DNA of 35,021 bases from Ectothiorhodospiraceae bacterium (GTDB lineage Bacteria; Pseudomonadota; Gammaproteobacteria; Nitrococcales; Halorhodospiraceae), in NCBI GenBank assembly GCA_003552625.1, contig PUNM01000055.1, forward strand, positions 1 to 35,021, given 5' to 3'. The position numbers were made by a program, and so were the translations under genes. Positions within the stretch are counted from its first letter, which is position 1, and the number at the start of each line of letters is the position of its first letter. Positions 31,099 to 35,021 of the stretch are shown here, piece after piece. The notes below the pieces were generated by a model that saw only the letters and a program-made list of their open reading frames with translations, did not search any database and was not told where the DNA came from.

Positions 31099-31107
31099 GG
31101 CTACGAT

Positions 31108-31141
31108 AAAAAAGGCCGCTGAGTCGTTCGACTCAGCGGCC
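31108..31141 (-). terminator. Intrinsic terminator of the phasin gene
   Basis: A perfect 12-base-pair stem (31114-31125 with 31130-31141, arm GGCCGCTGAGTC) with a four-base loop is flanked on its left by six A residues (31108-31113). On the minus strand that reads as a hairpin followed by six T residues, so it terminates the phasin transcript coming from the right. A second 8-base-pair hairpin (31152-31172) lies just before it. With no T run on the plus strand it may only partly stop purD transcription. Confidence 0.85.
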
Positions 31142-31179
31142 GCTCTCCGCTCGACCGCCGCGAGGGCGGTTGAAGGGGC

Positions 31180-31632
31180 TTACGCCGACTTCTTCGAGGA
31201 GGAGCTGCTGGTGGAGCTGCTGCCGCTGCCGCTCGCCGAGGAGCTGGTGCTGGAGCGGCCCTTGGTGGCCTTCTCGGTCTGACCCTTGACCGTCTCGGAG
31301 ATCACGGCCACGTTTTCCTGCGCCAGCTTCTGGACTTCCTCGCCAGTGCTCTTGCTGATATCGGCCAGCTGCGTGGCGTCCTCGGTGATCTTGTTGCTCA
31401 CCGTCTGGACCACCTTGCCCTGGTCGTTCAGGTAGCTCTGGAAGCTCTCCGGGTCACGGACTTCCAGCGCCTTGCGCATCTGCTCCATGGCCAGCTCCGT
31501 GTAAGAGCGGGCGGCCTCGATGTTCAGGTGGGCCACCTTCTCGGCATGGTCGAGCAGCAGGGCGTTGAGCTTGCGGCTCGGCTCCATCATCTTCTGGAAC
31601 TGTTGCATGGACTTGTTGAGTTGGTCTTGCAT
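31180..31632 (-). CDS. Phasin family protein
   Basis: 150 residues from the ATG at 31632, which has a perfect AGGAGG site. The helical part (about 1-115, MQDQLNKSMQQFQKMMEP... EAARSYTELAMEQMRKAL... LAQENVAVISETV) is the phasin_2 pattern; phasins coat polyhydroxyalkanoate granules. The last 25 residues are almost all Ser/Thr/Gly/Ala with a KKSA end. The upstream region carries two palindromic operators overlapping the promoter, as seen for PhaR/PhbF-controlled phasins. No PHA synthase gene is in the window. The frame extends upstream to 31734 through the promoter and is not used. Confidence 0.9.
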   Translation of the reverse strand: MQDQLNKSMQQFQKMMEPSRKLNALLLDHAEKVAHLNIEAARSYTELAMEQMRKALEVRDPESFQSYLNDQGKVVQTVSNKITEDATQLADISKSTGEEVQKLAQENVAVISETVKGQTEKATKGRSSTSSSASGSGSSSTSSSSSKKSA

Positions 31633-31680
31633 GGTAAACCTCCTGGGATACTGTCCGGCATGACCACTCGCCATGCCTTG

Positions 31681-31719
31681 TGCGATGCAACATAGCACCT
31701 GCTGTGTTGCGATGCAACA
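31681..31719 (-). promoter_or_regulatory. Phasin promoter with two PhaR/PhbF-like operators
   Basis: Reading the minus strand, the palindrome TGTTGCATCGCAACA occupies 31719-31705, and TGTTGCATCGCA recurs at 31692-31681. Both contain the core TGC-N3-GCA. The sequence matches my memory of the published PhbF consensus (TG-N-TGC-N3-GCAA), fully for the first copy and with one mismatch for the second. A possible promoter overlaps both: TTGCAT (31717-31712), a 17-base spacer, and TATGTT (31694-31689) with an upstream TG (extended -10). Overlap of operators and promoter suggests repression. Confidence 0.6.
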
Positions 31720-31734
31720 GTTCCTTTCGTCCAC

Positions 31735-31760
31735 AAAAAAGCCGCCTCGTTGGGCGGCTT
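31735..31760 (-). terminator. Intrinsic terminator of the actin-like gene
   Basis: On the minus strand, GCCGCC (31758-31753) pairs with GGCGGC (31746-31741) around a six-base loop, followed by six T residues (complement of A 31735-31740); two extra A-T pairs extend the stem. It lies 56 bases after the stop of the actin-like gene and directly upstream of the phasin promoter, separating the two transcripts. Confidence 0.85.
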
Positions 31761-31815
31761 GTCGCGGTGCCGACGCCGCGCGGTGGCGCCGGCCCGCCAG
31801 AGTGGGGGTGGTTGG

Positions 31816-32976
31816 TTATTGCTCCCCGCTTGCCCGGAAGTCGCGGCTGCCGCCCTCGTCGCGGCTGGTGTCCCCCCGGCTGTAAGAGGAGGTGCTCCCG
31901 CCGTAGCCGGCGGTAGAACCGCTGCCGGCCCCGTAGCTGTCGGCATCGCCCGAGCTCGGACCCAAGTCCGCGGCCTGCTGCTGGGCGTTGAAGTAGGCCC
32001 AGTTGTAGTAGCCACGCGCGTTCGCCGTCACCGAATCCTGGGCGAGCTGCGCCTGTGGAAGCTCAGGACGCAGATAGCGCTCCAGGACCCGGCCGCCGCC
32101 ACCGGTGATGATGATGTGGTCGTACTCTTGGATCTGCCACATGGAGCGCGCCTCCACCAAAAGCTTGGTGGCGATGTCGCCGAAGATACGGTCGCGCAGC
32201 TCGACGATGTCCACCGGGCGCCCGGAGACGTTGACCTGACCCCGGATCACCGCATCGTCCAAGGTGTACTGCTCACGCTCGAGGCCGTAGTGCGTAGACA
32301 GTTCCTGGGCGATCTCCTCGTAGCCGAAGGAGATGCCGAGCGGGACCGTCTTGCAGAAGCCCGGCGAATACTCGCCGTCGATCACCGTCGCGAAGTCGCT
32401 GGTCCGGAATCCGATGTCGATGATCCCGATGCGTCCGGAAAGGAGCGGATGGTCGCCGCGGATCTGGCCGCGATCGTCGAGGACCTCGGCCCAGAAGCTC
32501 CCGACCGGCTGCGGGACGACCTCGATGCGCTCCAGGCGGATACTGACCCCGAAGCGGCTCGCGCCAGTATGACGGACGACCTCATGATCGCCACGGAGCT
32601 GGCGCACGAAGTCATCGGCCATATGCATGCGCCCCGGGGGGAGCCCGGTGACGACGTAGAAGTTGTTGATCGTCTCCCGCGCGTAGAGGCTGAGCGCACC
32701 GAGAAAGAGGATCTTGAGATCGTCGCCTTCGGCACGGGTGGGCGACAGCCCGCGATGGGCGAGCCGCGAGTGCCGAATGGCGTAGTCTCCCAGCAAGTAA
32801 TTCTTGCCGTTGTAGGAGATGCGCAGCTCACTGCTGCCGGTGCGCTGACCGATTCCGAGCGACATGGGCATGCCCGATTCGCCCTCCCCGACCACGCTCG
32901 GGAAGACGTGCCCCTCGCGGCCGTCATCGATCTTGATGAATCCGTAACCCATGTCCAGGCCAATGCAACGTTCCAC
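31816..32976 (-). CDS. Actin-like ATPase, ParM/StbA-related, with a low-complexity C-terminal tail
   Basis: 386 residues from a GTG at 32976, eight bases after AAGGGGGA; an ATG six codons earlier lacks a good ribosome site. Actin-fold nucleotide motifs are in order: phosphate-1 CIGLDMGYGFIKI (4-16), phosphate-2 GIIDIGFRTSDFATVIDG (184-201) and the adenosine motif IIITGGGGRVLERYL (288-302). ANARGYYNWAY (319-328) resembles the end of ParM/Alp proteins. Residues 336-386 are a Ser/Gly/Asp/Tyr-rich tail with no fold. ParM moves plasmids with a ParR partner; no parR or centromere-like repeats are seen here. MreB is unlikely by motif. The role is unknown; neighbours are bactofilin and an M23 peptidase upstream and a phasin downstream. 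Confidence 0.82.
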   Translation of the reverse strand: MERCIGLDMGYGFIKIDDGREGHVFPSVVGEGESGMPMSLGIGQRTGSSELRISYNGKNYLLGDYAIRHSRLAHRGLSPTRAEGDDLKILFLGALSLYARETINNFYVVTGLPPGRMHMADDFVRQLRGDHEVVRHTGASRFGVSIRLERIEVVPQPVGSFWAEVLDDRGQIRGDHPLLSGRIGIIDIGFRTSDFATVIDGEYSPGFCKTVPLGISFGYEEIAQELSTHYGLEREQYTLDDAVIRGQVNVSGRPVDIVELRDRIFGDIATKLLVEARSMWQIQEYDHIIITGGGGRVLERYLRPELPQAQLAQDSVTANARGYYNWAYFNAQQQAADLGPSSGDADSYGAGSGSTAGYGGSTSSYSRGDTSRDEGGSRDFRASGEQ

Positions 32977-33092
32977 GGCGAATCCCCCTTCCATTTCTGT
33001 CTGCGGTCAAGCCGGGCGGCTCACCGTTCCGTCTTGCACCGCGTTGCCGGCTATGCTAGCACAGCAAAACCGCTTATGAGCCAACCGCTTGC

Positions 33093-33668
33093 CTAGTGCC
33101 GTCCCCAGAAGGTCTGGCGCGTGCGGGGGCGCTCGTGCTCTTCCTCGGTTTCATCGTGCGTTTCGGCCTGGGCCGGCGCCTCCTGCGCGGCCATCGGTTC
33201 AGGCTCCGGGGCCGGTTGCGTTTCCGGCGCGGGATCCGGTTCGGGTTCGGAGTGTTGCGGGCTGGAGAGGCGGGCCTCGCCGGCGCGCTCGTGCTGGAGC
33301 GCGGCAAGGGGCTCATCCCGGCGCGGATGGCTCTCGCCAAGGAACTGTCCGCCCGCCTCGATGATGAAGTCGTCGCTGTGGAGCTCGCCGAAGACCCGCC
33401 CTTGGGCGACAATCTCCAGACTGGCGCAGTCAATCACGCCCTCCACGTAGCCGCTGACCAGTAGCCGGTGCGCCTTGATATTGCCCTCGAAGCGGCCCGT
33501 GTGGCCGACGGTGACGTCGTGCTCGGAGATGATGGTCCCCTTGATCTGGCCGTCCAGGTGGAGATTGGACTCGAGGGTTAGTTCTCCGACCAGTCTTGTT
33601 CCATCGCTGATAACTGTCGTTCCAGGGCCTCGGCTCTTCGATTTATCCCCTTTGCCAATGATTCCCAT
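33093..33668 (-). CDS. Bactofilin
   Basis: 191 residues. The core (about 15-113: TTVISDGTRLVGELTLESNL, GHTGRFEGNIKA, LLVSGYVEGVIDC, GRVFGELHSDDFIIEAGGQF) is the right-handed beta-helix of bactofilins, which self-assemble into nucleotide-free filaments on the membrane. The remaining 75 residues are a Pro/Glu-rich disordered tail. The first 91 bases overlap the 3' end of the M23 peptidase gene in another frame. A bactofilin next to an M23 peptidase is a known pairing in cell-shape control (for example CcmA with Csd1 in Helicobacter). Confidence 0.93.
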   Translation of the reverse strand: MGIIGKGDKSKSRGPGTTVISDGTRLVGELTLESNLHLDGQIKGTIISEHDVTVGHTGRFEGNIKAHRLLVSGYVEGVIDCASLEIVAQGRVFGELHSDDFIIEAGGQFLGESHPRRDEPLAALQHERAGEARLSSPQHSEPEPDPAPETQPAPEPEPMAAQEAPAQAETHDETEEEHERPRTRQTFWGRH

Positions 33669-34507
33669 TTTACACGGCCCTCTTCCTCAAAGACTTCTTC
33701 ATAATTCTCGAGGCTCCAGTCCAGGAACGGCTCCGGGTTGAGCTTGCGCTGGGTATGCCAGATCTCGTAGTGCAGGTGCGGTCCATTGACATTGCCCGTG
33801 GCGCCGGAGTGGGCGATCACATCCCCTTGCTCGACGAACTCGCCGGGCTCCACCTCGAAGTCATCCAGGTGGGCATAGTGGGTCTGGAAACCGAAGTCGT
33901 GAGCCAGGATGACCAGGTTGCCCAACCCGCTGCCCTGGTGTTTGGCCGCGTAGTTGACCACACCATCGGCGGTGGCGACTACCTTCTCACCCACCGGCGC
34001 TCTCATGTCCACGGCGGCGTGGAAGGAGCGCTCGCCGGTGACCGGGTGGACGCGCCATCCGTATCCGCTCGTGATCCGCGATTCCTCTTTCAGAGGCCAG
34101 CCGTTGGGAATGGTACGCAGCATGAGGGACTTCTCGAGCGCCGTTTGACTTGCCACATCGACGCGCTCGCGCCGGTCGCGCTCCGGCTGCGGGTCGAGAC
34201 CGACGAGCGCCTCGATGTGGCCAAGTTCCAGGTCCAGCCGATGGATCTCCTGCTCGCGCTGGCTGATCAGATTGCGCAGCTCGGCGTTGCGCTCCTCGAT
34301 TTGCTGCGCGGCCTGCGCCTTCTGGGCGCGGACGTCGTTCAGTTCCTCGATCTTGTGATTCAGGCCGTAGATGGCCGCCGCCCCCCCCAGCAGGACGAGC
34401 AGCACCAGCCCCAGAAAGGCGAAGGCAAAGCGCTTGGCGATCTGGTGGAGGGAGTAGTGCCGGGCTCCACGAAAGTCGGTGATGGTGACCGTGAACCGCT
34501 CTTTCAC
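33578..34507 (-). CDS. Membrane-anchored M23 family peptidoglycan peptidase
   Basis: 309 residues from a GTG at 34507 preceded by GGGGAG; the frame upstream (to 34747) is low-complexity and overlaps the neighbouring gene. One membrane helix (27-48) is followed by a coiled coil (about 50-104) and an M23 lysostaphin-like domain. The zinc and catalytic residues are present: His163 and Asp167 (SFHAAVDM), His210 region (QTHYAHL), and His244/His246 (PHLHYEIW). It should cut peptide cross-links in the periplasm, or regulate such enzymes. The 3' end overlaps bactofilin by 91 bases, indicating co-translation. Confidence 0.93.
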   Translation of the reverse strand: MKERFTVTITDFRGARHYSLHQIAKRFAFAFLGLVLLVLLGGAAAIYGLNHKIEELNDVRAQKAQAAQQIEERNAELRNLISQREQEIHRLDLELGHIEALVGLDPQPERDRRERVDVASQTALEKSLMLRTIPNGWPLKEESRITSGYGWRVHPVTGERSFHAAVDMRAPVGEKVVATADGVVNYAAKHQGSGLGNLVILAHDFGFQTHYAHLDDFEVEPGEFVEQGDVIAHSGATGNVNGPHLHYEIWHTQRKLNPEPFLDWSLENYEEVFEEEGRVKWESLAKGINRRAEALERQLSAMEQDWSEN

Positions 34508-34583
34508 GCTGTGGTTGCTCCCCGCGATGATGCCGCGCCCGGCACCGCCACAAGCGGGCCAGTGCCAGGCGCTTTTGGATGCC

Positions 34584-34880
34584 TCACCGCTGCGAGTGGT
34601 GGTCCTCGTCGCTGCCGCGACGGAACTCGCCTTCGATGATCTGCCCCTGCCCCCGGTACTGTCGCCCACTGCGCCGCTGGAAGTCCGCCGCAGCCTGACG
34701 TAGCTGGCGCCGCAACCACCAGGTGCGGATGGCGATGATGACCGCACCGATCAGGGCGAGGCCGAGAAGGACTGCGAGTACGACGATGCCCAGGGTCGCG
34801 GCCAGGGCGATGACGGCGATCCCCGCGATGATGCCGGCGACCCGGGCAACCGGACCGCGCTGCGCGTGCTGAACCTGCAT
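34584..34880 (-). CDS. Small hydrophobic membrane protein
   Basis: 98 residues with a GGAGGC site before the ATG. Two adjoining hydrophobic stretches (about 12-30 and 32-50) form one or two membrane helices, followed by a basic, Gln/Arg-rich cytoplasmic tail (WWLRRQLRQAAADFQRRSGRQ) and an acidic/His end. I do not recognise a named family. It lies 76 bases upstream of the M23 gene in the same direction and may begin that transcript. Confidence 0.6.
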   Translation of the reverse strand: MQVQHAQRGPVARVAGIIAGIAVIALAATLGIVVLAVLLGLALIGAVIIAIRTWWLRRQLRQAAADFQRRSGRQYRGQGQIIEGEFRRGSDEDHHSQR

Positions 34881-34995
34881 GTTGCCTCCGCCTCTGCCGG
34901 CCTGGGCGTATTCGAAACGCCAAGGATAGCCGGCCGGGCCGGTGGTGGGCTACCCTTTCTGGCTTACCCGCCGGGGGCATCGAGGCGTGACGGCG

Positions 34996-35021
34996 ATGAG
35001 CGAGCAGCATCCGTTCGAGAA
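34996..35021 (+). CDS. Start of a downstream gene (partial)
   Basis: An open frame begins with ATG at 34996 (MSEQHPFE...) or an in-frame GTG at 34987 and runs off the window. It is divergent from the small membrane protein. Eight codons are too few to name it, and no clear ribosome site decides between the two starts. Confidence 0.35.

Follow-up and report, generated by a model that had tools for sequence, protein, structure and literature searches.

In Nostoc, the chromosomal ParM-derived actin FcmB, which has a ParR-type partner, FcmC, controls cell shape (PMC12645912), and in the spiral bacterium Rhodospirillum rubrum cell curvature is set by the pair LmdC–BacA (PMC10945521). Docking of actins by short C-termini has been described for arcadin-2, which binds the groove of crenactin with a contributing Trp, and for ParR, which binds that of ParM (PMC5173319). 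Bactofilins usually have short C-terminal tails of low conservation (PMC12448750), and the placement of bactofilin scaffolds in cells is still poorly understood. The window analyzed here is the whole 35,021 bp contig PUNM01000055.1 of an Ectothiorhodospiraceae bacterium (assembly GCA_003552625.1, 2.48 Mb in total). On its minus strand, a gene for a class-1 bactofilin (33093–33668) is located directly upstream of a gene for a ParM/ALP-type actin-like ATPase (31816–32976), and a matching gene order occurs, among named relatives, in Halorhodospira species. At the level of sequence, this arrangement points to a coupling of two different bacterial cytoskeletons. We regard as evenly balanced the proposition that a ParR-less chromosomal ParM-type actin has been recruited to an LmdC–bactofilin wall-shaping module.

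The actin-like ATPase is 386 aa long. Its start was placed at a GTG codon at 32976, following a conserved AGGGGG, instead of at 32994; the start sites of the actin, phasin and M23 genes were all refined by comparison with relatives. The Pfam matches of the protein are ALP_N (118 bits against a cut-off of 26.3; 5.2e-34) and MreB-like_C (52.4 bits against 27.8; 9.8e-14), and the MreB profile PF06723 is absent from them. The score against the NCBIfam FcmB equivalog was 44.2 bits, below the cut-off of 300. A search across the assembly found this actin in a single copy, and a canonical MreB is encoded separately, at C127 (5.8e-147). By sequence, the nearest relatives of solved structure are Dh-cParM1, pCBH ParM and CorM. 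An AlphaFold2 model based on 11 sequences reached a pLDDT of 61; with the addition of two viral relatives, from two distinct contigs found in viral scans, the values were 77 for pLDDT and 0.75 for pTM. The model, a check proposed in a first-pass annotation of the window, displays a ParM-type fold closest to Dh-cParM1 (PDB 8x1i; Z 31.6, root-mean-square deviation 3.5, 318 aligned residues, 22% identity). Z-scores were 28.7 for CorM, 28.1 for Ta0583 and 27.5 for Alp7A, and ranged from 25 to 32 for ParMs. From about residue 341 onward, the C-terminal tail is rich in Gly and Ser, was modelled with low confidence and is probably disordered.

Twenty orthologues, approximately 60–87% identical, were found: ten in the window's own (Halorhodospira) family, f1; eight in the sister family f2, including Aquisalimonas; one in genome G339; and one in a groundwater gammaproteobacterial metagenome-assembled genome (MAG). 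The 369 sampled genomes of the class contained one further orthologue, that of G339, and an intermediate relative in two more genomes. In the phylogenetic tree, these orthologues group together apart from plasmid and phage ParMs with a support of 99/100, the outgroup branches being long. With a dN/dS of about 0.1–0.2 and a conservation equal to that of purD and purH and exceeding that of the bactofilin, the actin is under strong purifying selection. A second clade of chromosomal ParM-type actins (about 31% identity) was observed in at least 23 genomes of f210, another family of the phylum (including G423, G444 and G429; loci L095–L104). These genomes are small and mostly low in GC, and might be Zetaproteobacteria; the loci examined have several differing housekeeping contexts, with neither ParR nor bactofilin adjacent, and nearly all of the genomes checked encode a bactofilin elsewhere. 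Divergent plasmid-type ParM genes (about 22–25% identity), separate from the chromosomal actin, were also noticed in G027, G053 and G040 (L043:9186-10211, L044:8095-9117 and L045).

The first-pass annotation had reported a lack of parR and of centromere repeats, and the repeat and ORF (open reading frame) searches agree with it. No iterated repeat families of the parC type were found within 31100–35000, no parR-like ORF in the window and no FcmC/CorR-type partner directly downstream of the actin gene; the ParR position holds only the phasin gene or ORFs unshared between loci. Among eight mobile comparators, a script detected an ORF in the ParR position in four (L114, L117, L118 and L156). L115 and L116, which have an overlapping annotated downstream ORF, lie outside the pattern of the script, as does the f210 locus L096, and L043 and L044 gave no clear call. 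A short ORF starts no more than about 20 nt from the actin stop codon in viral contig L156, phage G gp505 and plasmids L117 and L118, and the ORF list of L158 contains an overlapping downstream ORF for which Pfam hints weakly at a plasmid stability protein. Because this weak hint is confined to L158, the label "ParR-like" for the comparators reflects mainly position and size. The kinship of the actin to plasmid and phage ParMs would suit a remnant of a ParMRC plasmid-segregation system, or else a system for chromosome segregation whose adaptor has escaped recognition. However, besides the missing ParR and parC, the gene occupies a conserved chromosomal locus flanked by the housekeeping genes secA, mpl, ppa, prmA, fis, purH and purD, and both the purifying selection and the separate clustering of the orthologues make a segregation function improbable. 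Its plasmid-remnant form was rejected on account of the flanks and the ParR/parC searches.

In 16 of the 20 orthologous loci, which represent three contexts, the bactofilin gene directly precedes the actin gene on a shared strand. All ten f1 loci have the order M23–bactofilin–actin–phasin with a convergent purD behind, as far as contig ends permit. Five f2 genomes feature the order mutM–bactofilin–actin, in most cases with a convergent greB behind, and the M23 and phasin genes are not there; the order in the groundwater MAG is acs–bactofilin–actin. The f2 loci L032, L036 and L127 also share a conserved block upstream of the pair, encoding an HDOD/EAL-like protein, an ABC ATPase, a permease, an ABC_transp_aux (GldG-like) protein, a DUF4340-like protein and MutM. 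Conservation of the gene order, which the first-pass annotation had named as a check on its cluster, thus extends beyond the genus for bactofilin and actin, and the adjacency of M23 and of phasin to this pair is confined to f1. By gene order, the core unit is the bactofilin plus the ParM-type actin, and the five genes are not one functional cluster.

The bactofilin (191 aa; PF04519, 82 bits against a cut-off of 27.9, 3.1e-23) is the sole one found in the genome. It consists of an N-terminal MGIIGKGDKSK, a core and a 78-aa acidic tail. The N-terminus is membrane-targeting-like and, in a comparison made by eye only, similar to MFSKQAKS of BacA. Tails of actin-adjacent bactofilins are 78–121 aa long, mostly acidic and unalignable apart from the tip; those of seven bactofilins of the same class without actin measure 25–64 aa (lengths given with the exclusion of bactofilin L130). 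The C-terminal tip in the window, QTFWGRH-stop (33093–33116, minus strand), is proposed as an actin-docking peptide on the basis of the distribution of Trp/Arg tips. A Trp is present in the last four residues of 16/16 actin-adjacent bactofilins and of 0/80 others; 31 of these negatives were viewed alongside the positives when the tip was spotted, and the other 49 were collected later as a test. A naive Fisher test on these counts is inflated by shared ancestry; the test on three lineages versus seven unlinked class-1 bactofilins gives an approximate p = 0.008. The tips read TxWGRR, WGRH and WDRR in f1, RRWR and RRWS in f2 and SSWSRR in the MAG. Among 525 predicted proteins of the loci, 45 have a Trp in the last four residues, many of them being these bactofilins, and only actin-adjacent bactofilins are left when the last five residues must also include two or more Arg/Lys. 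The codons of the tip differ synonymously, so that selection apparently acts on the peptide itself. The tip tracks the actin and not LmdC, given that G031, G034, G013, G017 and G023 have LmdC and a class-1 bactofilin and neither actin nor tip. Presence of the tip coincides with presence of the actin in every class-1 bactofilin examined, including those of G039 and G031, two members of one genus, the latter of which has kept mutM–bactofilin and has no actin. Bactofilins of a second class (L119–L126, L128 and L134–L137) have a Gly/Ser-rich tail and are not linked to LmdC in the genomes examined; this class is the sole remaining bactofilin in G019, G027 and probably G043.

We tentatively propose, with confidence somewhat short of even, a composite cytoskeleton in which the bactofilin polymer replaces ParR, binds the actin via the Trp/Arg tip and links a predicted nucleotide-driven filament to a membrane scaffold and a wall endopeptidase. 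Membrane-held bactofilin polymers would display many C-terminal tips, and these would capture the actin, most likely in the groove between subdomains IA and IIA, in the manner of ParR and arcadin-2. The bactofilin would act as an adaptor in the stead of ParR, connecting the actin to LmdC; the actin filament would help to place or orient the bactofilin–LmdC patch and hence the site of peptidoglycan cutting, and cell curvature or width would be tuned as a result. The docking step is suggested by analogy, because the C-termini of arcadin-2 and ParR dock actins and the tail of the bactofilin BacP bears a client motif.

Several observations weigh against this proposal. In G019, G027 and G043 the actin gene is located between mutM and greB and the bactofilin has been lost, and in G339 there is no adjoining bactofilin. 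All four genomes have the actin with neither a class-1 bactofilin nor LmdC, and the actin must therefore have a second role or partner there; none of the other proteins encoded close to the actin in the bactofilin-less genomes has a convincing Trp/Arg tip. The tip occurs in about three lineages and does not represent 16 independent events, and the order of its residues differs between f1 (WxRR) and f2 (RRWR); the bactofilin tree is poorly resolved. Moreover, a promoter-like element in the bactofilin–actin spacer hints at transcription of the actin apart from the bactofilin. An actin acting alone, on cell shape, the chromosome or other cargo, with an inherited bactofilin adjacency and a tip that binds something else in the same lineages, would be consistent with retention of the gene at the mutM/greB locus in G019 and g13 despite the loss of bactofilin and LmdC, and with the related ParR-less chromosomal actins of f210, which have no adjoining bactofilin. 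However, adjacency to the bactofilin has been kept in three otherwise unrelated neighbourhoods, and the match of tip and actin holds throughout class 1, including the pair G031 and G039. We therefore consider a solitary actin rather unlikely.

The wall-cutting component of the proposed composite cytoskeleton is represented in the window by an LmdC/Csd1-like M23 endopeptidase (33578–34507, minus strand, GTG start at 34507; PF01551, 4.8e-30), the gene of which overlaps the bactofilin gene by 91 nt at its 3′ end. As read from the sequence, the protein comprises a cytoplasmic N-terminus (TDFRGARHYSLHQ), a transmembrane helix, a coiled coil and an M23 domain with HAAVD and HLH motifs. Its best PDB match is the Csd1–Csd2 pair of Helicobacter pylori (5j1l, 1e-45), and its cytoplasmic GARHYSLHQ resembles, by eye only, the R25-H26-L27 cluster of LmdC, part of a bactofilin-binding β-hairpin. 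The M23–bactofilin pair is conserved across families f1, f3, f4 and f5, and other families of the order also have overlapping pairs, there with no actin (G034, G023, G017 and G013). A full-length LmdC homologue and a class-1 bactofilin were found together in G016, G025, G029, G041, G039, G031 and G034; the homologue is absent in G019, G027, G043, G012 and G022, all of which are without a class-1 bactofilin. The M23–bactofilin pairing is a known module, older than the association with the actin; its distribution fits the published LmdC–BacA pair (PMC10945521) and the Csd1–Csd2 match. The idea of M23, bactofilin and actin as one obligate machine was rejected, since the actin occurs alone in G019, G027, G043 and G339 and the other two occur without actin in G031, G034, f3 and f4.

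The phasin gene (31180–31632, minus strand, ATG at 31632) encodes a Phasin_2 protein (PF09361, 66.5 bits against a cut-off of 24.9, 2.6e-18), one of three phasins in the genome; phasins are encoded elsewhere in related genomes too. An intrinsic terminator (31739–31760, minus strand), composed of a hairpin and a T run, follows the actin gene here, and equivalents exist at six further f1 loci (7/10 in all, three of them read by eye). The spacer element mentioned above is an extended −10-like TGTGCTAGCAT (33053–33063, minus strand), conserved in 7/10 f1 loci with two variants in addition; the actin gene is therefore probably served by a promoter of its own as well. The single co-directional cluster of the first-pass annotation retains its common strand and its bactofilin–actin core, and is broken by the terminator before the phasin and by the −10-like element before the actin. 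Within the promoter of the phasin gene (31681–31719, minus strand) lie repeats of TGTTGCATCGCA-type boxes, similar boxes being present in 9/10 f1 loci; they look PhaR-operator-like and are possibly operators of a polyhydroxyalkanoate (PHA) regulator. The phasin is, as far as the sequence allows one to judge, a bystander forming a separate transcription unit with its own promoter.

Positioning of PHA granules by the actin through the phasin would agree with the adjacency of the two genes in 10/10 f1 genomes. However, conserved adjacency reaches purD/purH equally, an opposite-strand RRM gene separates actin and phasin in G010 (L042:10421-10837), and the phasin is not near the actin in f2, while none was found in G339, an actin carrier. 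Taken with the terminator and the separate promoter, these data render a PHA function very improbable, and it was rejected. The suggestion in the first-pass annotation that the actin serves wall enzymes or PHA granules and not plasmids holds insofar as the actin is chromosomal, lacks ParR and parC and keeps its link to a bactofilin; its PHA part is not supported. An RRM-like gene was also noted near the M23–bactofilin pair in L133.

The remaining member of the five minus-strand ORFs at 31180–34880 encodes a small membrane protein of 98 aa (34584–34880). All five gene types described initially are present side by side; four have significant profile matches, and the 98-aa protein has none. Its gene, 5′ of the M23 gene, is kept in f1 loci L022, L024, L027 and L030, and a distant counterpart lies 3′ of the L133 bactofilins.

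Within the open-licence literature, bioRxiv being outside this scope, no publication was found that connects a ParM-type actin with a bactofilin. A chromosomal ParM-like actin as such, initially thought undescribed, is preceded by FcmB (PMC12645912), the cParMs (PMC12270681) and CorM (PDB 9rmi); the bactofilin-partnered, ParR-less form appears to be undescribed in the literature searched. LmdC–BacA (PMC10945521) and Csd1/Csd2–CcmA of H. pylori share with the present locus an M23 gene that overlaps or adjoins the bactofilin gene, but no actin partner has been reported for them. In crenactin–arcadin-2 and ParM–ParR, the actin is docked by a short peptide at the C-terminus of a protein encoded next to it; here, the proposed docking tail belongs to a polymer-forming bactofilin. 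The BacP of Myxococcus xanthus (PMC12448750) likewise has a conserved tail motif implicated in client binding, on an exceptionally long tail, but the motif is KKKVVVKK and the client is PadC, not actin. An actin-linked tip turns the question of bactofilin placement into a peptide-binding assay. Dh-cParM1 and other cParMs (PMC12270681; PDB 8x1i) are chromosomal and some are ParR-less, like the actin described here, although most are from Firmicutes and most have ParR, and no bactofilin context is reported in the parts of that source consulted. FcmBC and CorMR (PMC12645912; PDB 9rmi), which we infer to be one system in two species of filamentous cyanobacteria, are likewise chromosomal, ParM-derived and similar in fold. 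FcmB has the ParR-type FcmC immediately downstream, whereas the Halorhodospira-type actin has no such partner and a bactofilin upstream instead. If the proposal is true, this would be the second plasmid-type actin, after FcmB, adapted to cell shape, and by a route unlike that of FcmB, with the ParR partner gone and a shape protein possibly substituting for it.

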